Of a DNA stretch of 21,174 nt, positions 1,571-13,275 are shown piece by piece; within the stretch, counting starts at the first letter, position 1; every line of letters starts with the position of its first letter. The position numbers and the translations under genes were made by a program. The notes beneath the pieces were generated by a model. It saw only the letters and a program-made list of their open reading frames with translations. It did no database searches and was not told where the DNA came from. This DNA is from an uncultured Fretibacterium sp. Its GTDB lineage: Bacteria > Synergistota > Synergistia > Synergistales > Aminobacteriaceae. Location: positions 1 through 21,174 of the forward strand of contig CAJPSE010000006.1 of NCBI GenBank assembly GCA_905373185.1, read 5' to 3'.

Positions 1571-4500
1571 CTATCTCCTGCGGCGAATAGCGAACGCCGA
1601 CAGGGCGACCAGGGCCAAAGAGCCCAATCCCGTCTCGCAGCCCCCGCTGCTGGATGATTTATTCTGCTGCGGGCTCTGGTTCCGCTGCATCTTGCTTATG
1701 GGGATGCCGGCCTCGGGAAGGGAGACCGAGTGGATCTTCGAGTCGCCCTCCAGGCGGTATTGAAGGGCCGTAATGGCCGTGTTGGACAAATTGCCCTCCA
1801 ATACGTTGCCCGTCAGTTTCAGGCCATAGCGGCGGAGCGATCCGCCGAGCACCGCATTGTCGACCGCAAAAGTGAGGCTGGCCTTCTGCCCCCCCAGAGA
1901 GAGCTCCGTCCGCAGTGTGCCCTCGACGATATCACGCATCTTCGACTCGAGGGATGCGATCGACTGCTGCGACTCAAAAGAGGTTGTGAGCGTGAAGCGC
2001 AGGGTCCCCGGCTTTCCGGACTCGGGAACGACCTCGGCGACCCACCTCTCGGGGCTGATGGGAATATCGGGCAGAGGAACGTCCGAGGATTCGGGGGGCA
2101 GAGGCTGATTCGGGGCCGGAGATGGAGCCGGCTTCTTCGGATCGGGCTTTTGAGGCTCGTTGGGCTTGGGATCAGAAGATGCCGGAGGATTCGACGCCGA
2201 TGCCTTGAACGAAACCGAAAGCGCGTGGGCTGCTGTCACGTTGTCGAGCGCGTACCTGTAGCCGCTCTTCCCCGCAGCATCCCTGACATCGATCCCGTTG
2301 TCCGCCAGCGTACCGATGACGAAGCTCGGATTGGCCGTGATGTCGAACTCGACGCTGTCTCCCGACGTCACCTCCGTCTTGAAGGGGGAGGTGACCGCAG
2401 CGCCCTTGTGCTTCACGCTCCCGCCCGCATTCCAGGAGACCTGGACGGCAAACTTCGTCGGAGCGACGGGGGCTGATGCCCTGAACGTCACCGAAAGCGT
2501 ATGGGCCGCCGTCACGTTGTTGAGTGCGTACCTGTAGCTGACCTTCCCCGCAGCATCCCTGACATCGGTCCCGTTGTCCGTCAGCGTGCCGATGACGAAG
2601 CCCGGATTGGCCGTGATGTCGAACGCGACGCTGTCTCCCGACGTCACCTCCGTCTTGAAGGGGGAGGTGACCGCAGCGCCCTTGTGCTTCACGCTCCCGC
2701 CCGCATTCCAGGAGACCTGGACGGCAAACTTCGTCGGAGCGACGGGGGCTGATGCCCTGAACGTCACCGAAAGCGTATGGGCCGCCGTCACGTTGTTGAG
2801 TGCGTACCTGTAGCTGACCTTCCCCGCAGCATCCCTGACATCGGTCCCGTTGTCCGTCAGCGTGCCGATGACGAAGCCCGGATTGGCCGTGATGTCGAAC
2901 GCGACGCTGTCTCCCGACGCCACCTCTGTCCTGAAAGGAGAGGTGACCGCAGCGCCCTTGTGCTTCACGCTCCCGCCCGCGTTCCAGGATAGCTCGATGG
3001 CAAACTTCGTCGGAACGGGCATGGGCTGCTGCATGAACTCGTAGGCGCCGATGTCCGGTTTCGCGTCCGTGCGCTTATAGCCCCGCTGGTCGACGCTCAC
3101 CAGATCCCGAATATTGGCGGGCAGCCCTTCCAGGGTTCCCGCATCGACGGCAATACTGTCCGAGGGCAGTGCATGAGTGAGGGTCGGCCCGCCGTTGTCC
3201 TTCAGGCCCCCCAGCTTCGGGTCCGCGCTGGTGACGCCTGCGCCCCCCTCCGTCCAGCCCTGGATGACGCAGTTTTTCGGCGTCAAGGTGACATTCTTCT
3301 CGTTGACTATCTCCGTGCCGTTGTCCCAGAGGATGCAGTTGATCATCGTGGGTTCACTCTTCAAGGCGTTGTATATTCCACCGCCGCTGCCCTCCGGGCT
3401 GCCCTCGACGCTGCCTCGGTTTCTGAAGAAAGTGCAGTTGATTACTTTGGGCTTGCTGCGTTCGAAGTTACACATCCCGCCGCCGAGCCCTCCCCAGGGT
3501 CTCTCTGTGACCTTATTATTAGGACTGCCCTTATCAGCCGAATTTCCAGAGAACGTGCAGTTGACCACGGTCGGCTCGCTTTGGCTGTGGTTGAACATCC
3601 CGCCTCCCTTGGCGTTGGCCCCCTTGGCCTTGTTCCCGGAGAAGACGCAGCAACTCACGGTCGGTGTGCTGCGATCGTCGTTGTACATCCCTCCCCCGCT
3701 GCCATCGCCAACGTTATTCTCGGAGAAGGTGCAGTAGGCAATCGTTGGCCTGCTTGTGCCCATGTTGAACATCCCGCCGCCATACCCCTTTAAGGCCGTA
3801 TTTTCGGAGAAGGTGCAGTGGGTGACGACCGCCTCGCTCTTCTCGGCGTTGTGCATCCCGCCGCCGGAGCTGAATTGTATCGAAGTTTTGTTCCTGGAGA
3901 AGATACAATGGGAAACGAGCGGTTTCCCTCTGCCGTTGTACATTCCGCCGCCGTGGGCCCGCCCCGGCCCGGCCTCGTTGTCGGAAAAATTACACTGGGT
4001 GATGACCGGGTTGCCGCCATCGTTCAACATTCCGCCGGCGTATCCGATGTTTCCGGAGAAGGCACAGTGGGTCACGGTGGGGCTGCTGGAGCCGTTGTAC
4101 ATACCGCCGGCGCACTTTACCGGCTCGGACATATTGCCCGAAAAGGTGCAGTAGCTGATGACGGGATTGCTGCCGTTGCTGTTGCACATTCCGGCGCCGC
4201 TGCCCATATACCGGACGGCCTTGTTGCCCGAGAATACGCAGCGCGTTATGGTCGGGGAGCTCTCGATGTTGTGCATCCCACCGGCATGGTTCTCGACTTT
4301 CCCCTTTTCACCGATACCCCCGCAGACCGTGAAACCGTCCAGGACGGCCGCGGCGGTACATTTCGAGCTCCGCACCACGGTGTAGCTGTTCTCTCCCACG
4401 ATGTCCCCGGCCTTGGGCGTGGCGCCGTTCCCGTCCCTCTTGTCGTCGCCGTCCAGGTCGCCCGTCAGAACCGTGACGTTGGCATCCGGTCTGCGGGCCT

Positions 4501-4819
4501 CGAGGCTCGTCTCGTCCCCCTTGAACCCGCCATAGAGCTTCACGCCCTCCTTGAGGACGAAGGAGGCATTGAGGTCCTTCTCCCCCGAGGGCCGGTAGAT
4601 TCCCTTGGCCACCCAGAAAACATCGCCGTTCTCGGATTCCTTGAGCTTGTTTCTGAGCCCGCCCTCGTCAAGGGCGTTGTTCCAATCACCGCCTCCCTTA
4701 TCTCCGCCGCCGTTTTGAGTCACGTAATATGTCTTTGCCTCTGCACCTGCGGAAAACACGAGCAGGGACAGCAGCAAAACCCCAACACACAACCCGCTCC
4801 TTCGGCCTTTCTCGTACAT
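1571..4819 (-). CDS. Beta-helix surface protein with three InlB-type repeats and Synerg-CTERM tail
   Basis: A secreted, probably surface-held protein of 1082 residues. In order: signal peptide (about 1-28); conserved N-terminal region shared with the protein at 8187-11078; eleven parallel beta-helix rungs (about 194-518) marked by the repeat CxFSxN and GGGMxN; a closing stretch ending DQRG..DIGAYEF, as in choice-of-anchor Q proteins; three 92-residue InlB B-type repeats (about 598-873); a Pro/Lys linker; a ~120-residue module beginning near ERW (about 923-1043); and the sorting tail SSGGCETG, hydrophobic segment, RRRR. The upstream ATG at 4825 is only 2 bases from AAGGAG (4828-4833), so the ATG at 4819, with 8-base spacing, is preferred. 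Adhesion or glycan binding is a guess from the fold class; no catalytic residues were recognised. Confidence 0.88.
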   Translation of the reverse strand: MYEKGRRSGLCVGVLLLSLLVFSAGAEAKTYYVTQNGGGDKGGGDWNNALDEGGLRNKLKESENGDVFWVAKGIYRPSGEKDLNASFVLKEGVKLYGGFKGDETSLEARRPDANVTVLTGDLDGDDKRDGNGATPKAGDIVGENSYTVVRSSKCTAAAVLDGFTVCGGIGEKGKVENHAGGMHNIESSPTITRCVFSGNKAVRYMGSGAGMCNSNGSNPVISYCTFSGNMSEPVKCAGGMYNGSSSPTVTHCAFSGNIGYAGGMLNDGGNPVITQCNFSDNEAGPGRAHGGGMYNGRGKPLVSHCIFSRNKTSIQFSSGGGMHNAEKSEAVVTHCTFSENTALKGYGGGMFNMGTSRPTIAYCTFSENNVGDGSGGGMYNDDRSTPTVSCCVFSGNKAKGANAKGGGMFNHSQSEPTVVNCTFSGNSADKGSPNNKVTERPWGGLGGGMCNFERSKPKVINCTFFRNRGSVEGSPEGSGGGIYNALKSEPTMINCILWDNGTEIVNEKNVTLTPKNCVIQGWTEGGAGVTSADPKLGGLKDNGGPTLTHALPSDSIAVDAGTLEGLPANIRDLVSVDQRGYKRTDAKPDIGAYEFMQQPMPVPTKFAIELSWNAGGSVKHKGAAVTSPFRTEVASGDSVAFDITANPGFVIGTLTDNGTDVRDAAGKVSYRYALNNVTAAHTLSVTFRASAPVAPTKFAVQVSWNAGGSVKHKGAAVTSPFKTEVTSGDSVAFDITANPGFVIGTLTDNGTDVRDAAGKVSYRYALNNVTAAHTLSVTFRASAPVAPTKFAVQVSWNAGGSVKHKGAAVTSPFKTEVTSGDSVEFDITANPSFVIGTLADNGIDVRDAAGKSGYRYALDNVTAAHALSVSFKASASNPPASSDPKPNEPQKPDPKKPAPSPAPNQPLPPESSDVPLPDIPISPERWVAEVVPESGKPGTLRFTLTTSFESQQSIASLESKMRDIVEGTLRTELSLGGQKASLTFAVDNAVLGGSLRRYGLKLTGNVLEGNLSNTAITALQYRLEGDSKIHSVSLPEAGIPISKMQRNQSPQQNKSSSSGGCETGLGSLALVALSAFAIRRRR
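2199..3026 (-). repeat. Three tandem 276-bp repeats (InlB-type domains)
   Basis: Units are 2199-2474, 2475-2750 and 2751-3026, each 276 bp (92 codons), in frame within the beta-helix gene. Bases 2350-2643 and 2626-2919 are identical over 294 bp, longer than one period. Each unit encodes KF..SWNAGGSVKHKGAAVTSPF-type sequence typical of divergent InlB B repeats. Near-identity points to recent duplication or gene conversion. Confidence 0.95.
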
Positions 4820-4827
4820 CGACATCT

Positions 4828-4833
4828 CTCCTT
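4828..4833 (-). promoter_or_regulatory. Shine-Dalgarno site deciding the start at 4819
   Basis: AAGGAG on the minus strand lies 2 bases from the ATG at 4825 and 8 bases from the in-frame ATG at 4819. Normal spacing selects 4819 and removes two residues from the longest reading. Confidence 0.75.
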
Positions 4834-4855
4834 ACACCTTGGGATTTTGGACGAG

Positions 4856-4927
4856 CCGGGGGAGCACCCCCGGAAAACCGCCTCACGAGCCCGCCGTAGT
4901 CCGTCCCGCAAAAACGCCCCCGGGACG
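4856..4927 (-). promoter_or_regulatory. Two hairpins in the 5' leader of the beta-helix gene
   Basis: CCGGGGG (4856-4862) pairs perfectly with CCCCCGG (4867-4873) across a 4-base loop. Further upstream in the transcript CGTCCCG (4902-4908) pairs with CGGGACG (4921-4927). Both lie between the predicted promoter (4988-5015) and the start codon, so the ~160-nt leader is structured. A regulatory role is inference. Confidence 0.45.
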
Positions 4928-4987
4928 TCCGGCCAAGCCGACATCGAGTGTGTTCGTGTTTGGAGACTATCAGTACATCGATTCGAT

Positions 4988-5015
4988 ATTTTACTGTAGA
5001 TGAACGGCTTGTCAA
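4988..5015 (-). promoter_or_regulatory. Sigma-70-type promoter for the minus-strand beta-helix gene
   Basis: On the minus strand, TTGACA (5010-5015) is followed after 16 bases by TAAAAT (4988-4993), inside an AT-rich patch unlike its GC-rich surroundings. It predicts a start near 4981 and a leader of about 160 nt. Confidence 0.65.
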
Positions 5016-5255
5016 TAAAAATGTTCGTTTCAAGAAACTATTATGTCACGACTATTCCAATAAAATATATGAAAATCATATATAAGGAGTGCTGGGAGTT
5101 CTTTTTCGCCCTGCGGTGCGGCATCCCGAATCAGGGCAGCAGGTTTTCCGTGCCCATGCCTGAATAGTCCAGTATCACGTCTTCCGCACTCTTCCTCCTC
5201 CGTCCCCGTGACGGGCGGGCAGTCCGAAGCATGAGGAAGGCATCGACGTTGAAAC

Positions 5256-5284
5256 TTGACAACGACTCGGAATGGACCTATCAT
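5256..5284 (+). promoter_or_regulatory. Sigma-70-type promoter for the unknown surface protein gene
   Basis: TTGACA (5256-5261), a 17-base spacer and TATCAT (5279-5284) form a near-consensus promoter. It predicts transcription from about 5291 and a leader of about 185 nt. A short inverted repeat, CGTTG (5247-5251) with CAACG (5260-5264), overlaps the -35 box. Confidence 0.65.
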
Positions 5285-5286
5285 CT

Positions 5287-5302
5287 GTTTGTAATAACAA
5301 AC
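5287..5302 (+). promoter_or_regulatory. Candidate operator palindrome at the transcription start
   Basis: GTTTGT and ACAAAC arms are separated by AATA, forming a 16-bp near-palindrome centred about 11 bases after the -10 box. Its position over the expected start site is where a repressor would block initiation. The protein that might bind it is not in this window. Confidence 0.4.
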
Positions 5303-5477
5303 AAAAATTGTTCTGTTGCGATCTTCCGCCGAAGTCGATTGCGGAACGTCGGGTGGCGTAAACGGGGCCGGGACCCCGCCGATATCGTTTCCCGGAGCTC
5401 CCCCAAGCCGGGTGCGACGGCAGAGGGGAGAGATGATCATAGGGCGCGGAAGCGCCCGGAAAGGAACGTGTGGGGAA

Positions 5478-8036
5478 ATGCGAAAAAAGGTATTGGCGGC
5501 GTTTGGCGTATCGTTGGCGCTGGCGCTGGCGCTCGCGTTCGCAGGGACACCTCGTCCCGTCGCGGCGGAGCCTCTGGCACAGGGGCAGATTCCCAACGAG
5601 ATGAAGGTGGTCCGTACGTTCGGCGGAAAACAGGTCGAGGATCCCTTCAAACTGATGGCAAGTTGCCCGAACCGCCGTATGTCCTATCGCCTGATGCAGG
5701 TTTTGGAGCGCAACCAGTCTTCGGAGAGGGTCCTGCGCCCCTATGATCTGACCCTGCATGCGGGATGGACGTTCGGCTGCGCGCTGAGCTTCTTCCAGAC
5801 GGAAAAGTATCAGGAGGGCACCGATCAGGGGCTCTGGCTGGGCTGGCGTTTCTCCATGGGATCGGGATTTCCGAAGTTCCTGTTCATGGGGCGGTCCCGT
5901 TCCTCGGGCGAGCGGTTCCTGTGTTCGCCGATCAAGGAGGCGGCAGAGGACGTCTTTGTGGTCGCCGTGGAGTGGAACAAGAAGTTGGGCGCTCGCTGGA
6001 GGGCTCTGCAGAAAAAGCTGCTCAAGGCAATCCTCGACAAGGATTACGGCGGAAGGGCATATAAAGACCTTACCGAGGAGGAGCAGGAGGCGGCATTCAA
6101 CAAGTTGACCGTGCAGATGAAGGCGGAATGGCCCAAGGAGCTAAAGACCGAAGAGGAGAAGGCGCTGAACGAGAAACGCGATCGTCTGCTCGCCCTGCTC
6201 GAGCAGGTCCTCAATCAGCCTAAGGATACGGATTATGAGTACAGGGTATTGGAAAAGGGCGTCGGGGTCCCGGTCCTCGTCCAGGACGGGAGCTTGCAGA
6301 CCACGGGAGGGAACCTCGAGCTGAAGGGGCGGGACCGAGGCCTGACGGAGACGATGCTCTTCAGGCTGGCCCAGACGGCCTCCGGCCTCTGGCAGGACAA
6401 GAAATTCCATGCCGACGACGTGACGGTCGAGACGGGATGGAACGATCCGAAGGTCAAAGAATTTCTGACGGGAGAACTGCACGTCCCCGAGGGCAAAATC
6501 GTGCTCGGAGCCGCGGGGTCCCTGACCGCGGAGAAGGACTTGGGGCTGGCCGACGCATGGTTCCGCGTCTCGGCCCTTTCGACGGGAAAATCCCTGCTTT
6601 TCCGCGCCACGGAGAAGATGCTCTCGCCTCTCTATTTCGAACTCAAGGGCAAGGGGGCGTCCACCGCACAGGAGGAGACGCGCCTGGCCGCTCTGTCGCA
6701 GGTCTCGCCCTTCCTGGGAGGCTTCGAGGTCCGCGATTGTCCGAAGGACAAGGGGCTGAACGATGTCCTGTACGACAACTCCCTCGTCTTCCTGGGGCAG
6801 GACGGTTCCAAGGAGAAGCTGAAGCTCGGCTTGCTTGTCTATGAGCTTGTGAAAGACGCCAACATCAGCTCCGACGTCATCTTCAACACCGTCACGGGAT
6901 TTCGCGCCGCGCAGTTCGCCTCCCAGGCGTGGAGCGACGGCGTATTCAAGCCCGCCGATGCCTCCGTCACCGTCGGGCCCATGTTGAGGGGCACGAACCC
7001 CGCGGACTTCTGGAAGTCCCTGGGAGTCGCCGACGTCGAAACCAGCGCGGAGGGCTCGGACAATGAGCGGCTTACCGTAAAGATCAAGATCAAATCCACG
7101 GGCGAAATCTACACGATAGCGGAGACCGAGGACCTTGGCCGCAGGGACTATGCAAACCTGAAAGCCTATGCGGACAGTATCAGGCCACTGGCTAAAAAGG
7201 AGAAGAAAGGCGCCTCCGTCGCTCCGCAGACGCTTGCGAAGGTCGGGATGATCTCGGCGTTCGGGGAGGTCCACGCCATGCACGATGAACTGAAGGGGTG
7301 GTCCGGCGCGCTTCACATCACTGAGGACAGCATGGAGGAGCTTATCGGCAGAGCAACAGCAGCGCCCTGCGTCGGCAACTTCGTCGTCTCGAAGACAACG
7401 GAAACTCCGGTCCCCCCCACCCCCGGCAATCCGGATCCTGAAAAACCCAAGCCCGAGGATCCCAAACCCGAGGATCCCAAGCCGGAAAATCCGAAGCCGG
7501 AAACCCCTAAGCCCGAGGAACCCAAGCCCGACACTCGGCAGGAGCAAGAACTGGGAGATTTCCTCAAGTCCCCGCAGAACTGGGGTATCAGCGAGACTCA
7601 GGTGGGTAATGTCACCAAGGTCGTTTTCACGACCAGCTTCGAGACGAACCTCGGCCTGAAGAGCATGCGTCTGACAACCCAGGGGTTCCGGCAGGGAACG
7701 GTGAAGGCCGAGCTGCTTCCCGTTTCCTCGGGAAAGACGAGGACGGCCGCTGCGGCAGCCCGTCGCTACACGCTCAGGGCCTCCGGGGAGTTCGAAACGG
7801 CGGACAGGGATAAGGCTGCGATCACGGGTATCCTCTACACGCCCTCCGACGGTTCGGGGGAACGGAGCCTGCCCCTGCCGTCCTCGGGGATTCCGTTGAA
7901 GGGGATGAAGAAAACATCTCCTTCCCCCGACACGGAAAAGAAAGGCGGCAGCAGCGGGTGCGACACCGGGCTTCTCTCCTTTGCGGCATTGGCCCTGGTG
8001 CCCATGGCATCACGATTCGGGAAAAAAGCGCGGTAA
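5478..8036 (+). CDS. Large secreted protein of unknown fold with Synerg-CTERM tail
   Basis: I do not recognise the main body of this 852-residue protein. It begins with a clear signal peptide (MRKK, Leu/Ala-rich core, cleavage near VAA-EP, about residue 30). Residues 31-640 look globular and mixed, with a charged, probably helical part around 170-260 rich in Lys/Glu. A Pro-rich linker follows (about 643-690) with six PKPEx units of 15 bp. A module starting near QNW (about 699-809) resembles those of the three other surface proteins here, with the shared pattern YTLRASG...DKAAITGI...SLPLPSSGIPL. The tail is GGSSGCDTG, a hydrophobic segment and a basic end. The start at 5478 gives a compact signal peptide. 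An in-frame ATG at 5433 after a G-rich Shine-Dalgarno-like stretch is the alternative and adds 15 residues. Confidence 0.85.
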   Translation: MRKKVLAAFGVSLALALALAFAGTPRPVAAEPLAQGQIPNEMKVVRTFGGKQVEDPFKLMASCPNRRMSYRLMQVLERNQSSERVLRPYDLTLHAGWTFGCALSFFQTEKYQEGTDQGLWLGWRFSMGSGFPKFLFMGRSRSSGERFLCSPIKEAAEDVFVVAVEWNKKLGARWRALQKKLLKAILDKDYGGRAYKDLTEEEQEAAFNKLTVQMKAEWPKELKTEEEKALNEKRDRLLALLEQVLNQPKDTDYEYRVLEKGVGVPVLVQDGSLQTTGGNLELKGRDRGLTETMLFRLAQTASGLWQDKKFHADDVTVETGWNDPKVKEFLTGELHVPEGKIVLGAAGSLTAEKDLGLADAWFRVSALSTGKSLLFRATEKMLSPLYFELKGKGASTAQEETRLAALSQVSPFLGGFEVRDCPKDKGLNDVLYDNSLVFLGQDGSKEKLKLGLLVYELVKDANISSDVIFNTVTGFRAAQFASQAWSDGVFKPADASVTVGPMLRGTNPADFWKSLGVADVETSAEGSDNERLTVKIKIKSTGEIYTIAETEDLGRRDYANLKAYADSIRPLAKKEKKGASVAPQTLAKVGMISAFGEVHAMHDELKGWSGALHITEDSMEELIGRATAAPCVGNFVVSKTTETPVPPTPGNPDPEKPKPEDPKPEDPKPENPKPETPKPEEPKPDTRQEQELGDFLKSPQNWGISETQVGNVTKVVFTTSFETNLGLKSMRLTTQGFRQGTVKAELLPVSSGKTRTAAAAARRYTLRASGEFETADRDKAAITGILYTPSDGSGERSLPLPSSGIPLKGMKKTSPSPDTEKKGGSSGCDTGLLSFAALALVPMASRFGKKAR
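7446..7532 (+). repeat. Short tandem repeat encoding PKPEx linker
   Basis: Five full 15-bp units and one partial unit encode PKPED, PKPED, PKPEN, PKPET, PKPEE and PKPD. This forms an extended spacer between the unknown body and the C-terminal module. Copy number in such arrays can drift. Confidence 0.9.
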
Positions 8037-8072
8037 ACTCGACCTGAAATTTTTTTGAACCGTTGACCCAAG

Positions 8073-8121
8073 GCGGAAGGCCGTTCCTCCCATCTCCACA
8101 GGGCGGCCTTCTGCTTTGTTT
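8073..8121 (+). terminator. Terminator after the unknown surface protein gene
   Basis: GCGGAAGGCCG (8073-8083) pairs with CGGCCTTCTGC (8104-8114), 11 bp with one G-U pair, around a 20-base loop. The tail TTTGTTT follows at once. It suggests the next gene, at 8187, has its own transcription start or depends on readthrough. Confidence 0.65.
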
Positions 8122-8129
8122 CGAGGTGT

Positions 8130-8159
8130 GTCCGAATCGAAGAGTCTGAGATTCGGGAC
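8130..8159 (+). promoter_or_regulatory. Inverted repeat in front of the second beta-helix gene
   Basis: CCGAATC (8132-8138) and GATTCGG (8150-8156) are perfect inverted copies 11 bases apart, extendable with one bulge. It lies just before the Shine-Dalgarno site AAGGGAG (8171-8177). It could be an operator or an RNA hairpin. No convincing -35/-10 pair was found beside it. Confidence 0.35.
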
Positions 8160-8186
8160 AATTTCTTCCGAAGGGAGTTCCTGAAA

Positions 8187-11078
8187 GTGAGAAAGAGTTT
8201 TACGATTCGCGCTGCGACGGCGCTAGCCTTTGTCTCGCTGCTTTTCCCCCGCCCCATCGGGGCGGCCGAAAAGGTACTCCGGGTCACACCGAACGGGGCA
8301 AGCATGGAAGCGGACCGGGACGGGTCCTCCTGGGAGCGCGCGTTGGGAGAAAAAGAATTTTCCGCTGCGCTTTCCTCCGCTGAAGCGGGGACGGAGTTCT
8401 GGGTTGCCGGTGGCAGTTATCGGCCCAGCCACTCGGGCGATCCGGCGTCGGCGTTCGTCCTCGGGGGCGGGGTGGCGATCTACGGAGGGTTCAACGGAGA
8501 CGAGAAGGACCGAAGCGGGCGGGACCCCAAGGCGCACGTGACGATTCTCACCGGCGACCTCCATAACGACGACGAAAAGGACGGAAGCGGCGCGACGGCC
8601 TCCTGGGAGGGTATCAAGGGGACGAACAGCACCGTCGTGGTGAAGGGTGCAAAATGCACGGAGAGTACCGTTCTCGACGGCGTGACCATCACCGGGGGCA
8701 GCAATCCGACGGGCAAGGGCGGAGGCTTGAGCCTATCGGGCTCCCCAAGGATATCGAACTGCATCTTTCAGGGCAACCTGGCCAAGTCAGGCGGCGGCAT
8801 GGCCAGCCGCGAGGGCAGCCCCAGGGTCGAAAACTGTGTCTTTAAAAAGAACAGGGCCGATCAGGGGGGAGCCGGCCTGTTCGAGTTCGGAAAGATCGGC
8901 AAGGCCGGAGCGTTCGGATCCACGGTGAAGGGCTGCCTCTTCGAGGGGAACTCGGCGGAAGCCTTCGGCGGAGGGATGGGCGTCATGACGGCGAGCCCGC
9001 GCATCGTCGCCTGCACCTTCAAGGGAAACTCCGCGGAGTGCGGCGAACAAAGCAAGGTCGACACCCGTGGAGGCGGGCTTTATCTCTATTACGACAGTGC
9101 TGCCGAGGTGAGGGACTGCACCTTCGTCGGCAACCGGACATCCTCCAAAAACGGCAGGGGGCTGGGCGGAGGGGTCGCCGTCATGGAGCGCACCGCGATT
9201 TCCCTGTACAACTGCACCTTCTCGCAGAACTACGCCTCGAGATGCGGCGGCGGCTTCTTTCAGTCCGTCGGGTCCCCGGCGCTCACGAACTGCACCTTCT
9301 TCAGAAACGAAGCCCCAAGGGGCGGCGGAGCGTACGCGGAGAATGGGGGGAACTCCACTCCCAGGACGGCGCCCGTTTTGACGCACTGTACCTTTTTGAG
9401 GAACAAGAGCACGGAGGGCGGCGCCTTCTACGCCGAACAGGGGGTCGAGCCCTTCATTCTGAACGGCATCCTCTGGGAGAACGAGGGCGGTGAGATCGGT
9501 TATCACGAAAGGGTCGGGAGGTTCCTCGTAAGCCACTGCGTCGTCAAGGGGGACTTCAACTATTCGAGGGCCACTCCGGAAAACGTCGTGTCCGGGGACG
9601 CAAAAATTCAACCATTGGCCGACAATGGCGGTTCGACTGAGACCTGCGCCATCGTGGCTGGAAGCTCCGCCGTCGATATCGGCATGAACGGCACGGAGCT
9701 GGAAGGGAAACTGCAGAGGAGTTCCCTGTCGAAGATGCAGAAGGAGGGGCTCCTCTCCTGTGTCTCGGCGGACCAGAGGGGACTGAAGCGTTCTGGAAGG
9801 GCGGATGCCGGATCCTTCGAGGTAAACGCAACGGTTCCCGGAACGGAGTTCGTCATCTCCGCGGCGGCCGACCTCGGGGGCAGCATCGAGCCCTCCGGGG
9901 AGATCTCCGTGAAGAGGGGAACGGATCGCTCCTTCGCCATTCGCGCGGACAAGGGCTTCCAGATCGCCAGCGTCCGGGTCGACGGGGCCCTCCTGCCGGA
10001 TGCCTCCGGCCGCACGGAGTACGACTATAAGTTCGAAGGGGTCTCCCGCGATCACAGCATATCGGCGGGATTCGAGGAGATACGGTTCACCGGGCTGGAG
10101 ATCGTGGGCCAGCCGGACACCAGGCTCCATATCGGCGAGGTACGCACGTTTCATTACCGTCTGATCGGCGACGCCGAGATCGCGACCGTGGACAGGGCCG
10201 TTCCATCCTATCGTGGCAAGGATGGCCGCCCCGACACGAAATGGACTTGGTGGATGGACCCTGTCACAAGCACGGATATTGCCCTGATCTTCAAGCCCCT
10301 GGAGGGCATTGTGGACGGGACGTTGACGCTCGATGTGCGGCTCAAGAACGGCTCCCTGCTGTCCGCCTCACTGCCCCTGACCATCCTGTCCGGGAACGCC
10401 CCTGCGCCACAGCCCCAGCCGGATCCCAAGCCCAATCCACAGCCCCAGCCGGATCCCCAACCGAATCCGAAGCCCCATCCGGATCCGAAGCCCCAACCTC
10501 AACCCGAGATCTCGCAGGACATCGGTGTGGACGTCCCGGAGAATCCTGCCGGTTGGAACGTGGAAGTCGGAGCTCCCAACGACAGGGGTGAGCGTGGCAT
10601 CTCCCTCTCCTGCGGCGTGAGCTTCCTCAATCAACCCGTTTCTGTGCGCGTCGACGCCTCGAACTTCGTCAACGGCATAGAGTCCTACAGGCTTGTCAGG
10701 GACGGGGAGGGTGCTGGGACCGTCATGTCCGTGACGATGGAGAAGAAGCACAAGTATCGGCTGGAGCTGATCGGACGGGTTCTGGACGCGGAGTTGGACA
10801 AGGCGGCGATCAGGGGGATCACCTTCTATTTCGAGGATGGCTCCGCATCCGAGAAGAAGTTCGGCTCGGAGGGGCTGCCCCTTCGCAGCGTCCCTCGCGC
10901 CGATTCCACGCCGGAAACTCCCGATAACAGCGATAAGAGGGGGACGGGAAGTTCGGGGGGCGGATGCAGCTCATTCCCCTTTGCCTTCATCGTTCTCGCA
11001 GGCATCCCCTTGTTCTGCCGCAGGCGGGGGCAGTGCGCCCCTGTAGATCCGACCCATTCGGGAGGCTTCATGTCATGA
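8187..11078 (+). CDS. Beta-helix surface protein with atypical Synerg-CTERM tail
   Basis: A secreted protein of 963 residues, paralogous in its N-terminal half to the minus-strand beta-helix protein (shared FWVAxGxYRPS, YGGFxGDE, TxLTGDL, TVLDGxTxxGG). In order: signal peptide (about 1-27, ending IGA-AE); beta-helix with about eight CxFxxN rungs (about 190-405); a DQRGLKR..DAGSFEV closing stretch; one InlB-type repeat (about 553-630); an Ig-like region (about 632-735, tentative); a PQPDPKP linker (about 740-775); the ~120-residue C-terminal module (about 778-904); and GSSGGGCSS, hydrophobic segment, CRRR. About 16 further residues follow the Arg cluster, unlike the sister proteins. Translation starts at GTG (8187), 9 bases after AAGGGAG. 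The stop overlaps the next start as ATGA, so the protease downstream is probably co-translated. Confidence 0.88.
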   Translation: MRKSFTIRAATALAFVSLLFPRPIGAAEKVLRVTPNGASMEADRDGSSWERALGEKEFSAALSSAEAGTEFWVAGGSYRPSHSGDPASAFVLGGGVAIYGGFNGDEKDRSGRDPKAHVTILTGDLHNDDEKDGSGATASWEGIKGTNSTVVVKGAKCTESTVLDGVTITGGSNPTGKGGGLSLSGSPRISNCIFQGNLAKSGGGMASREGSPRVENCVFKKNRADQGGAGLFEFGKIGKAGAFGSTVKGCLFEGNSAEAFGGGMGVMTASPRIVACTFKGNSAECGEQSKVDTRGGGLYLYYDSAAEVRDCTFVGNRTSSKNGRGLGGGVAVMERTAISLYNCTFSQNYASRCGGGFFQSVGSPALTNCTFFRNEAPRGGGAYAENGGNSTPRTAPVLTHCTFLRNKSTEGGAFYAEQGVEPFILNGILWENEGGEIGYHERVGRFLVSHCVVKGDFNYSRATPENVVSGDAKIQPLADNGGSTETCAIVAGSSAVDIGMNGTELEGKLQRSSLSKMQKEGLLSCVSADQRGLKRSGRADAGSFEVNATVPGTEFVISAAADLGGSIEPSGEISVKRGTDRSFAIRADKGFQIASVRVDGALLPDASGRTEYDYKFEGVSRDHSISAGFEEIRFTGLEIVGQPDTRLHIGEVRTFHYRLIGDAEIATVDRAVPSYRGKDGRPDTKWTWWMDPVTSTDIALIFKPLEGIVDGTLTLDVRLKNGSLLSASLPLTILSGNAPAPQPQPDPKPNPQPQPDPQPNPKPHPDPKPQPQPEISQDIGVDVPENPAGWNVEVGAPNDRGERGISLSCGVSFLNQPVSVRVDASNFVNGIESYRLVRDGEGAGTVMSVTMEKKHKYRLELIGRVLDAELDKAAIRGITFYFEDGSASEKKFGSEGLPLRSVPRADSTPETPDNSDKRGTGSSGGGCSSFPFAFIVLAGIPLFCRRRGQCAPVDPTHSGGFMS

Positions 11079-13216
11079 CGAAAAAATACTTTGCCCTTAT
11101 CTGCAGCTGCGTGTTCGTGCTTCTGTGCTCAGGTCCCCTGGAAGCGAAACCGGCCAACCCCGGGGAGGTGATCGTTCTGTTCCGCAACAACTCCGGCGAA
11201 CGCCTGACTCACAGCTCCGCCCTGCGGGGCGTGACCCAGTTCCACGTCGCTGCCGAAGCCGCGGCGGCAGGAGCACGGGTCGTCCGAACCTATGGGGAGC
11301 TCTCGGAGTCCGTGGATGGAGTTTTCGTACTGCTGCATGCAGATGGCAGGACGACGGAACAGCTGACGGCATCGCTGAAGGGAAACCCCAGTGTCCTTGC
11401 CATATCCCCTAACCGCCCCCTGTACGCGCTGGAGGAGAAAATCCCCAACGACCCCTATTTCGACAAGCTCTGGGGCATGAGGGACATCGACGCGCCGGCT
11501 TCATGGAGCGAGACGACGGGAGACGATTCCGTCCGCGTCGCCGTACTCGATACGGGGATCGCGACCGGACACGAGGACCTGAAGGACAACATCGACACGC
11601 TCAACAGCCGTTGTTTCTCGCCCTTCTACGCCGAAGACGCCTACGAGGACGATGCGGGGCATGGCACCCACGTGAGCGGGATCATCGGAGCCGTCGGCGA
11701 CAATCAGAAAGGGGTCGCCGGGGTCAGCTGGCGAAGTAAGGTCATCGCGTTCAAGGTCCTGGACGCAAATGGTTCGGGCTCGACATCCACCGTCATCAGG
11801 GGGCTTGACAGGCTGCTTGGCCTTCTTCGCAGCCAGCCGGCCCTCAAAATTGCGGCGGTCAACCTCTCCCTGGGCGGTTACAGCGCGGAATCCCCCGAGG
11901 AGATGGAAAAGGATTCCGCGGAGTGGCGGGCCTACAAGGCGCTGGACGATACGGATCGCATCGTCATTGTCGTAGCGGCCGGGAACGAGGGGCTGGAGGT
12001 AGGGGAACCCGCCCCGTTCAGCGACTCGGAGTCTCTTTTCCGGCCCCGTTTCAGGAGAGGGGAGTATTGTTATCCCGCGTCCTTCACGGGGCTGAACAAC
12101 ATGATCGTCGTCGGCGCCATGGCAGAGGGGGGGAAGGGGGCGTATTTCTCCAACTGGAGCCAGACGAAAGTCGACGTGGCGGCTCCAGGAATGAAGATCT
12201 ACAGCACGACGCCCAAGGGAGTCGAGGGCCCGGGATACGGAAGCACGTATGGACTCTATGGGTTCATGTCGGGAACTTCCATGGCCGCCCCCCATGTGGC
12301 GGGAGCGGCCGGGCTGTTGATGTCGAAGTTTCCTACCCTCAAAGCCCACGAGCTCAAGGAGGCCATCCTCAAGGGGGCAAAGCCGAGTGTCAATCCCGTC
12401 GCCAAGCCCTTTCCGACAAAAGACGACTATCAGGGGATCAATCCGAAGGAACAAAAGCTCTCCGCCCATGGCTTTCTCAACGTCAAGGGAGCTCTCGAAT
12501 GGCTGAATACGCGCTATCCCGAGGTTCCTCCCGACCCGTCGCTCAAGCCCAAACCAGAACCGCAACCCAAGCCCGAGCCTCGGCCCGAACCCCAGCCACA
12601 GCCTCGGCCCGAACCACAGCCGACACCGAAACCGCAGCCAAAGCCCGAGCCGCAGCCCAGGCCCGAGCCGCAGCCAAAGCCCAGTCCCCAGCTTCCTCAG
12701 GAATCCGTGGAGCTCCCCATCGACCCCGCCCGCTGGACGGCGACAATCGGGGTCCCGGACAGCCAGGGGTTCTCCAGCGTTTCTCTGATCTGCCCGGTGA
12801 GGCTCTCGTCCCAGCCCGACGCCGTATATGCCAGCGCGTCCTCCCATTTTGTAGGCGGCGTCACCTGCAGTCTGGCCTGGGACGGCAACCCGGTCGGGGC
12901 GTTCACCTTCCTGGTTCAAACGAAGGAAAGTCAGGAATACCGGCTGAAGCTGGAAGGACGGGTTCCCGCTTCCGCTTTGGACAAGGCTGCGATCTCGGCC
13001 GTGTGCTTCCGGTTCAAGGACGGCTCCATGCTGGAAAAGAGCCTGGGGTCGGAGGGACTGGCGCTCGGCAGCGTTCCCCGCTCCAACCCCGACCCCGACA
13101 ACAATCAGCCCGATAAGAAAACGTCCGGGCATTCCGGAGGAAGCGGCTGTAACACGGGATTCGCAGGTCTGATCCTTCTGGCTGCCCTGCCAATTGTCCT
13201 GCGCGGAAAACCCTGA
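11075..13216 (+). CDS. Secreted subtilisin-family (S8) serine protease with Synerg-CTERM tail
   Basis: A 713-residue secreted protease. After a signal peptide (about 1-24) comes a propeptide-like region with inhibitor I9 character (about 28-120). The S8 domain follows with all key residues: Asp159 in VLDTGIA, His196 in GHGTHVSG, the oxyanion Asn304 in AAGNEG, and Ser402 in GTSMAAPHVAG. It should therefore be an active endopeptidase once matured. A long PKPEPQP linker (about 484-541) leads to a C-terminal module (about 550-670) very like that of the upstream protein (DKAAIS, GSEGLALGSVPR), and the tail SGGSGCNTG, hydrophobic segment, short basic end. The ATG at 11075 has GGGAGG 9 bases upstream and overlaps the preceding stop by 4 bases. 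Substrate is unknown; processing of neighbouring surface proteins or of host or food protein are both possible. Confidence 0.93.
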   Translation: MTKKYFALICSCVFVLLCSGPLEAKPANPGEVIVLFRNNSGERLTHSSALRGVTQFHVAAEAAAAGARVVRTYGELSESVDGVFVLLHADGRTTEQLTASLKGNPSVLAISPNRPLYALEEKIPNDPYFDKLWGMRDIDAPASWSETTGDDSVRVAVLDTGIATGHEDLKDNIDTLNSRCFSPFYAEDAYEDDAGHGTHVSGIIGAVGDNQKGVAGVSWRSKVIAFKVLDANGSGSTSTVIRGLDRLLGLLRSQPALKIAAVNLSLGGYSAESPEEMEKDSAEWRAYKALDDTDRIVIVVAAGNEGLEVGEPAPFSDSESLFRPRFRRGEYCYPASFTGLNNMIVVGAMAEGGKGAYFSNWSQTKVDVAAPGMKIYSTTPKGVEGPGYGSTYGLYGFMSGTSMAAPHVAGAAGLLMSKFPTLKAHELKEAILKGAKPSVNPVAKPFPTKDDYQGINPKEQKLSAHGFLNVKGALEWLNTRYPEVPPDPSLKPKPEPQPKPEPRPEPQPQPRPEPQPTPKPQPKPEPQPRPEPQPKPSPQLPQESVELPIDPARWTATIGVPDSQGFSSVSLICPVRLSSQPDAVYASASSHFVGGVTCSLAWDGNPVGAFTFLVQTKESQEYRLKLEGRVPASALDKAAISAVCFRFKDGSMLEKSLGSEGLALGSVPRSNPDPDNNQPDKKTSGHSGGSGCNTGFAGLILLAALPIVLRGKP

Positions 13217-13242: not shown

Positions 13243-13275
13243 CGACCCCCCTCCTGAGAGGGGGGTCGTTCTATC
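13243..13275 (+). terminator. Strong terminator after the protease gene
   Basis: A perfect 11-bp stem, CGACCCCCCTC (13243-13253) with GAGGGGGGTCG (13258-13268), closes on CTGA and is followed by TTCTATCTCTT. It lies between converging genes and may also stop transcripts of the minus-strand methyltransferase operon. Confidence 0.85.

Follow-up and report, generated by a model that had tools for sequence, protein, structure and literature searches.

A domain of about 120 residues stands before Synerg-CTERM-type tails in Fretibacterium surface proteins and is exchanged between protein bodies

Introduction

How the type II secretion system (T2SS) recognises its cargo has long been debated, and what is known of Synerg-CTERM tails is chiefly their motif. 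The subject of this study is a domain, here called the module, that lies directly before tails of this type in four neighbouring proteins encoded on a 21,174-nucleotide stretch of DNA from an uncultured Fretibacterium sp. (GCA_905373185.1, contig CAJPSE010000006.1, positions 1 to 21,174; this whole stretch is the window). A comparable architecture has been described for VesB of Vibrio cholerae, where a protease is followed by an IG fold, an unstructured linker and a GlyGly-CTERM. According to that study, this tail is enough on its own for association with the membrane, and surface exposure and outer-membrane translocation of a reporter need the IG fold as well as the tail (PMC13393428). For MYXO-CTERM proteins, a second study has the tail cleaved by an intramembrane protease, the myxosortase MrtX, with lipidation of the Cys and T2SS export of the folded protein being proposed (PMC11980579).

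The proteins described here resemble VesB in that a folded domain, possibly of the immunoglobulin (Ig) class, stands between the body and the linker plus CTERM, and in that the tail combines a Gly-rich motif, a membrane segment and a basic end; a T2SS is encoded in a genome that carries such proteins, as it is in V. cholerae. They differ from it in the Cys of the Synerg-CTERM tail, where VesB has GlyGly, and in the sharing of the module, as a cassette, by many unrelated bodies. The likeness to the MYXO-CTERM/MrtX system lies in the tripartite tail with its invariant Cys and, as proposed here, in tail processing, lipidation and T2SS export; the tail family and the phylum are different, and the part of PMC11980579 that is accessible mentions no companion domain before the tail. 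Searches of an open-access library, which lacks most subscription journals, found no paper on Synerg-CTERM and, among the papers listed, none on this domain. That a folded domain can precede a C-terminal sorting tail is known; what appears to be new is this family of domains, the way it is exchanged among bodies and where it occurs.

Results

One homologous domain in four neighbouring proteins

The four proteins, termed A to D, lie side by side, with A divergent from the other three, and their parts are located as follows.

1571..4825, minus strand: protein A, 1084 residues; signal peptide (by eye), beta-helix, choice-of-anchor Q domain, three 92-residue repeats, Pro-rich linker, module, tail
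5478..8036, plus strand: protein B, 852 residues; signal peptide (by eye), Pfam-blank body, PKPE-type linker, module, tail
8187..11078, plus strand: protein C, 963 residues; signal peptide (by eye), beta-helix, choice-of-anchor Q domain, Pro-rich linker, module, tail
11075..13216, plus strand: protein D, 713 residues; signal peptide (by eye), S8 subtilase, Pro-rich linker, module, tail
1682..2056, minus strand: module of A, residues 924-1048; 74 bits to the profile of 13 modules from outside the window
7569..7913, plus strand: module of B, residues 698-812; 94 bits to the same profile; modelled with AlphaFold (AF2)
10542..10898, plus strand: module of C, residues 786-904; 73 bits to the same profile
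12722..13081, plus strand: module of D, residues 550-669; 62 bits to the same profile; modelled with AF2
1574..1645, minus strand: tail of A (GGCETG..., hydrophobic stretch, RRRR); TIGR04564 19.8 bits, under the cut-off
7953..8033, plus strand: tail of B (SGCDTG...); TIGR04564 16.1 bits, under the cut-off
10956..11075, plus strand: tail of C, extended by about 16 residues past the basic cluster; TIGR04564 13.8 bits, under the cut-off
13142..13213, plus strand: tail of D (SGCNTG...); TIGR04564 28.3 bits, over the cut-off

It was confirmed that a single homologous domain, about 120 residues long, is present in all four of these secreted proteins, immediately before a Synerg-CTERM-type tail. The profile of 13 modules from outside the window scored the four copies at 62-94 bits, whereas the best of 2000 shuffles of the window modules reached 9.2 bits; as the 13 members had first been retrieved by a profile that included the window four, this test is only partly independent, although all four copies match one and the same outside set. 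A sequence-only reading of the window had already proposed a common module in segments that essentially match ours, with the copies of C and D close to each other and the other two distant, and the identities agree with it (43% for C versus D, 16-27% for every other pair among the four). The order that it gave for each C-terminus, namely a Pro-rich linker, the module and a Gly/Cys tail, was seen in all four proteins, with Pro making up 33-45% of the 40 residues sampled upstream of each module. Pfam likewise agreed with its view of the bodies as two beta-helices, one protease and one of no recognised type, in that A and C matched beta-helix families and D the S8 subtilases, while the body of B had no Pfam match and was 62% identical to the body of a protein (L108) from another genome, G035.

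The shared motifs singled out by that reading hold across an alignment of 37 modules, a set that includes near-duplicates: the W is present in 36/37, the Y in 32/37, the L and the G of YxLxLxG in 29/37 and 27/37, the A of the 'AAI' block in 33/37 and the G of 'GIPL' in 34/37. In addition, 32/37 have a final M. Every position conserved in at least 60% of the 37 modules is of a structural kind (W, G, A, aliphatic, Y and the final M), and no conserved polar set was found among them.

The Synerg-CTERM model TIGR04564, which spans 27 C-terminal positions and not the module, has a curated cut-off of 22.5 bits. The earlier assignment of such a tail to all four proteins thus stands by score for D, whereas A, B and C stay under the cut-off and show the pattern of Gly-Cys, hydrophobic stretch and basic end all the same. 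The C tail (window 10956-11078) has a roughly 16-residue extension that is unusual for such tails and lies where the gene approaches and overlaps the start of D, the stop codon of C and the start codon of D sharing an ATGA; it is possibly linked to translational coupling.

Predicted fold and relation to described families

AF2 models of the B and D modules, the most divergent copies in the window, showed the same order of strands and helices, with a high predicted local distance difference test (pLDDT) score in the core of the module and low values in the linker and tail. Thus the structure prediction suggested earlier as a check for a single fold gave agreement in secondary-structure order between two divergent members. 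Weak structural matches suggest that the module may be a compact Ig-like beta-sandwich, the closest known folds being Ig-like and adaptin-ear beta-sandwiches (PDB 3zy7 and 5ot1, Ig constant domains and alpha-3 domains of the major histocompatibility complex). With the D model as query, the top rows from Foldseek were N-terminal domains of Candida Als adhesins (best E 1.6e-3, template modelling (TM) score 0.33-0.34), followed by antibody fragments. A sequence search of the PDB gave no relation, the best match being beta-2-microglobulin at E 0.91. VesB was found neither in that search nor among the matches listed for the fold, which does not in itself exclude a relation.

A scan of 28 modules against Pfam, NCBIfam and PHROG found no family covering the module (best E 0.017, 0.023 and 0.0033, respectively), and among the matches listed each family touched only one of the 28. 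With no significant profile match over these modules, a known family of any of the three collections was ruled out, in keeping with the suggestion that the module may be undescribed. Neither differing folds nor a known domain unlinked to the tails was found.

The module is nearly confined to positions before the tail

A profile restricted to the module, with no tail residues, was used to search 185 Synergistota genomes. Built from the window four, it found 16 places in 4 genomes; with 17 modules it found 27 places in 8 genomes, and with 28 modules 29 places in 10 genomes at E<=0.01, or 33 places in 13 genomes at E<=0.1. At all 29 places the reading frame runs on into a linker and a tail with Gly-Cys, hydrophobic and basic parts, so that the layout of VesB, a folded domain between the body and the linker plus CTERM, recurs throughout, with a module core that AF2 predicts with confidence in the two copies modelled. 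Tail adjacency is an independent check, since the profile held no tail residues, and even weak matches, those of 20-23 bits included, directly precede tails. In genomes G035, G038 and G043, a TIGR04564 match follows 20 of the 21 modules at a distance of 10-142 nt; the tail of the remaining module (L056) and the tails at the 8 places in other genomes were identified by eye, two of the places (in G056 and G068) having a less Gly-rich tail. Four further places at E 0.01-0.1 were left out of the 29, one of them (L069) lying before a tail and three (L065-L067) not. As the earlier reading had predicted, the profile search of Synergistota found the module almost only before Synerg-CTERM-type tails, with 29/29 such places at E<=0.01 and 1/4 in the weaker range.

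Outside Synergistota, 877 genome searches covered 9 mixed genomes, 392 from the phylum of a metagenome-assembled genome (MAG) titled Spirochaetae, 240 from the class of a Selenomonadales MAG and 236 from the class of a Nitrospinota MAG, at least three genomes being counted twice and these groups making up the whole of the coverage. The matches numbered 0/9, 1/392, 0/240 and 0/236, and the single match, in the spirochaete phylum, was judged spurious (36 positions with a stop inside). A genome-contig scan with a profile of the C and D modules alone gave no match. Searches of protein databases, restricted by exact words, returned 4 matches for the D module, 7 for a further profile (A5) and 46 for the module of L114 (one of these at E 2); by source name, the homologues P0010, P0035 and P0038 come from Fretibacterium.

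Several individual members deserve mention. A 268-residue stop-to-stop open reading frame (ORF) (L125, G035:C25, ORF 263-1066) appears to consist of a signal peptide, a module and a tail, with no other body, as a free-standing module. At L126 (G122:C1:719229-719450) the frame that leads into the tail contains no more than the later part of the module (profile positions 39-119), and the gene is possibly frameshifted or truncated. Papain and lectin-like proteins of other Synergistota (L128-L131, L062) have a divergent module and no Pro-rich linker, some with long insertions ahead of the last strand; they are perhaps an older form of the family.

Tails without a module

TIGR04564 tails were found in 137 of the 185 Synergistota genomes, compared with 10 for the module. 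Together, the module-rich genomes G035, G038 and G043 hold 53 tails (E<=0.01), 19 of which have a module just upstream and 34 none; 19 of these 34 module-less proteins (two partly masked) were inspected, and the profile scan gave 3.5 bits or less. A subtilase (L137, G035:C5) that shares 60% identity with D across 481 residues has a Pro-rich linker running straight into the tail, with no module, and in two others (L138 and L139, G043:C18) a different repeat takes the place of the module before the tail. The module is thus not found on all substrates of the tail system, and the proposal that it is a common anchoring or sorting-recognition element is not supported by these counts. Since tails without a module abound, and tails and modules vary separately, the module is an optional, interchangeable domain beside the tail, and sorting does not need it.

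Exchange of bodies and modules, and apparently of tails

Carriers of the module include beta-helix/PMP-repeat, S8, C1 plus lectin-like, leucine-rich repeat (LRR), GLUG and DUF6273 proteins, together with bodies without a match. Bodies and modules were compared in 37 of 41 carriers, 7 of the 57 database proteins being taken in; the four excluded were two carriers that contain masked residues and two whose modules did not pass a filter of 20 bits. With a body pair defined as at least 44% identity over at least 400 residues, 21 body pairs were found among the matches listed, 14 with modules 50-85% identical and 7 with modules 19-26% identical, the latter at background level (the median across all 666 module pairs is 23%). 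Because near-duplicates take part in some of the pairs, these numbers do not represent independent events.

Three cases of exchange are represented. The subtilase clade of D and P0055/P0056 have bodies 46-47% and modules 19-22% identical; D itself is 47% identical to P0055 in the body and 20% in the module, while its module is 43% identical to that of C, a protein whose body has no match to its own. L107 and L118/L121 have bodies 63-65% and modules 23-24% identical, and the L107 module is 43-53% identical to those of three other proteins of the same genome. L113 and L119 have bodies 55% and modules 26% identical, and the L113 module is 54-58% identical to modules of LRR proteins. In the pairs with divergent modules, body homology stops at or before the module. 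Module and body thus recombine independently, and the module behaves as a cassette. In an LRR family of 43 proteins (P0012-P0054), bodies and modules are homologous throughout, while the tails are of clearly different forms (CDAG[FV]SG in 19/43, CAAG in 14/43 and others in 10/43, one of them truncated), and tails therefore seem to have been exchanged independently of modules.

Secretion context

A T2SS operon is present in G035, a genome that carries the module, as in the VesB setting. Its gsp genes lie in one region, with gspD at 367.7 bits (cut-off 351.35) and gspG over its cut-off; gspE, gspF, gspM (a Synergistetes-specific model) and a gspK-like gene in the same region are under their cut-offs and yet have those models as their best match. 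Two secretin matches were found in every one of the ten genomes with modules, and 9/10 have a gspK match, every one under the cut-off. The exception is G038, in which no gspK match was found, the start of one secretin resembles GspD of G035 and a gspF-like gene is present. Across the 185 Synergistota genomes, the occurrence of Synerg-CTERM tails goes strongly with that of T2SS genes: at least two secretins occur in 110/137 genomes with tails versus 8/48 without, and a gspK match, in no case over the model cut-off, in 124/137 versus 5/48. These counts are uncorrected for kinship or completeness, and they concern the tail and not the module.

The window around the four genes

The window also holds candidate signals around the four genes.

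5256..5284, plus strand: sigma-70-like promoter candidate before B-C-D; 11/12 consensus positions, consensus match only
4988..5015, minus strand: sigma-70-like promoter candidate before A; 11/12 consensus positions, consensus match only
13243..13268, plus strand: terminator-like hairpin 3' of D; 11 pairs, 9 of them G-C, pattern match only

Because a promoter-like site lies 5' of B and a terminator-like hairpin follows D, B-C-D could form a single transcription unit; the window has 3 promoter-like sites against 1.4 expected from shuffles, and 17 terminator-like hairpins against 9.4. In protein A, residues 606-880 (window 2186-3010, minus strand) comprise three near-identical tandem repeats with a period of 92 residues (starts 606, 698 and 790), which sit between the beta-helix and the linker and whose expansion was apparently recent.

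Nothing unusual was noticed in the flanking genes, which encode peptidase T (161-1393), a methyltransferase, a sigma factor, an alpha-ribazole-phosphatase-like protein, energy-coupling factor (ECF) transporter components, TsaB/TsaE and a fragment of an NAD(P)H-hydrate dehydratase, several of these names resting on matches under the curated cut-offs. A window ECF transporter gene is 74% identical to its counterpart in a Synerg-CTERM-bearing Synergistetes MAG, and likewise 74% identical to that in a Spirochaetae MAG; a genome-contig scan with the ECF S-component gave one Synergistetes locus and ten others.

Discussion

We tentatively favour a reading, to which we give somewhat less than an even chance, in which the module is an exchangeable Ig-like cassette between body and Synerg-CTERM tail that aids outer-membrane export or display. 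It is favoured because the module occupies the same place as the IG fold of VesB, has a comparable predicted fold class and occurs in the same secretion context. A Sec signal peptide would deliver the protein to the periplasm, and the tail would keep it in the inner membrane with a fixed topology; an enzyme would then process the tail at its Gly-Cys motif, leaving the protein lipid-anchored, and the module, folding beside the membrane, would serve as the element for export and display. That the module takes part in export or display is argued by analogy with VesB, and the T2SS may recognise it. As to the enzyme that would process the tail, CPBP proteases are so widespread that their presence alone says little. 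The strongest point that weighs against this reading is that homologous bodies with the same type of tail manage without a module. T2SS signals vary from cargo to cargo, and such module-less homologues are for that reason compatible with a role in export. A more specific form of the proposal is in our estimate rather unlikely. In it the module would be a portable signal for outer-membrane export, its fold acting, jointly with the Synerg-CTERM anchor, as a passport for the T2SS, and it would be recombined through the flanking linkers onto unrelated cargo and exchanged among paralogues.

Ranked close behind the cassette for export or display, though itself doubtful, is a passive stalk: an Ig-like spacer with no role in recognition that lifts the body off the membrane, for which any stable sandwich would do. 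The purely structural conservation of the 37 modules is what such a spacer would show, as is the absence of the module, or its replacement by another repeat, in homologous subtilases; many carriers also have a Pro-rich stalk upstream, with at least 20% Pro in the sampled 40 residues for 21/39. A generic spacer would, however, be expected elsewhere and in repeated form, and the module is nearly confined to tails in few genomes; judged by coordinates, and with no dedicated repeat search, no second in-frame copy was present at the 33 places. The diversity of the module and its wholesale exchange among bodies could instead suggest a ligand-binding or adhesive, antigenically variable domain that binds host, partner or envelope glycans and is diversified by swapping, as could the Als adhesin domains that head the Foldseek rows and the ORF that has a signal-like segment, a module and a tail and nothing more. 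This we consider unlikely: a conserved polar set is lacking, the membrane-proximal place is the poorest for an adhesin, and co-inherited pairs hold a module identity near that of their bodies, so that the module does not seem to change unusually fast.

The earlier suggestion of a sorting-recognition domain, read by the enzyme that processes the Synerg-CTERM tail, would account for the strict adjacency to the tail. It is disfavoured, and to us very improbable, as tails occur without the module, a close homologue of D included, both across Synergistota and within the genomes that have modules; moreover, the GlyGly-CTERM of V. cholerae with its linker works when fused to another secreted protein (PMC13393428). 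Chance likeness between low-complexity C-termini could be entertained for the low identity of the distant copies, and is next to negligible given profile scores far over those of shuffles, a confidently predicted core and the finding that even weak matches fall before tails.

Returning to the module as a cassette for export or display, its natural presence or absence on homologous bodies provides a comparison set for the question of which features besides an anchor a surface protein requires. For annotation, the C-terminal regions of surface proteins in Fretibacterium and some other Synergistota gain a domain name. Were the module a portable export signal, new surface proteins would be ready for display in one step. 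Body, module and tail evolve as separable parts, and related bacteria appear to swap the module between otherwise unrelated proteins; a shared and swappable domain of this kind suggests a plug-in part for protein export or display.

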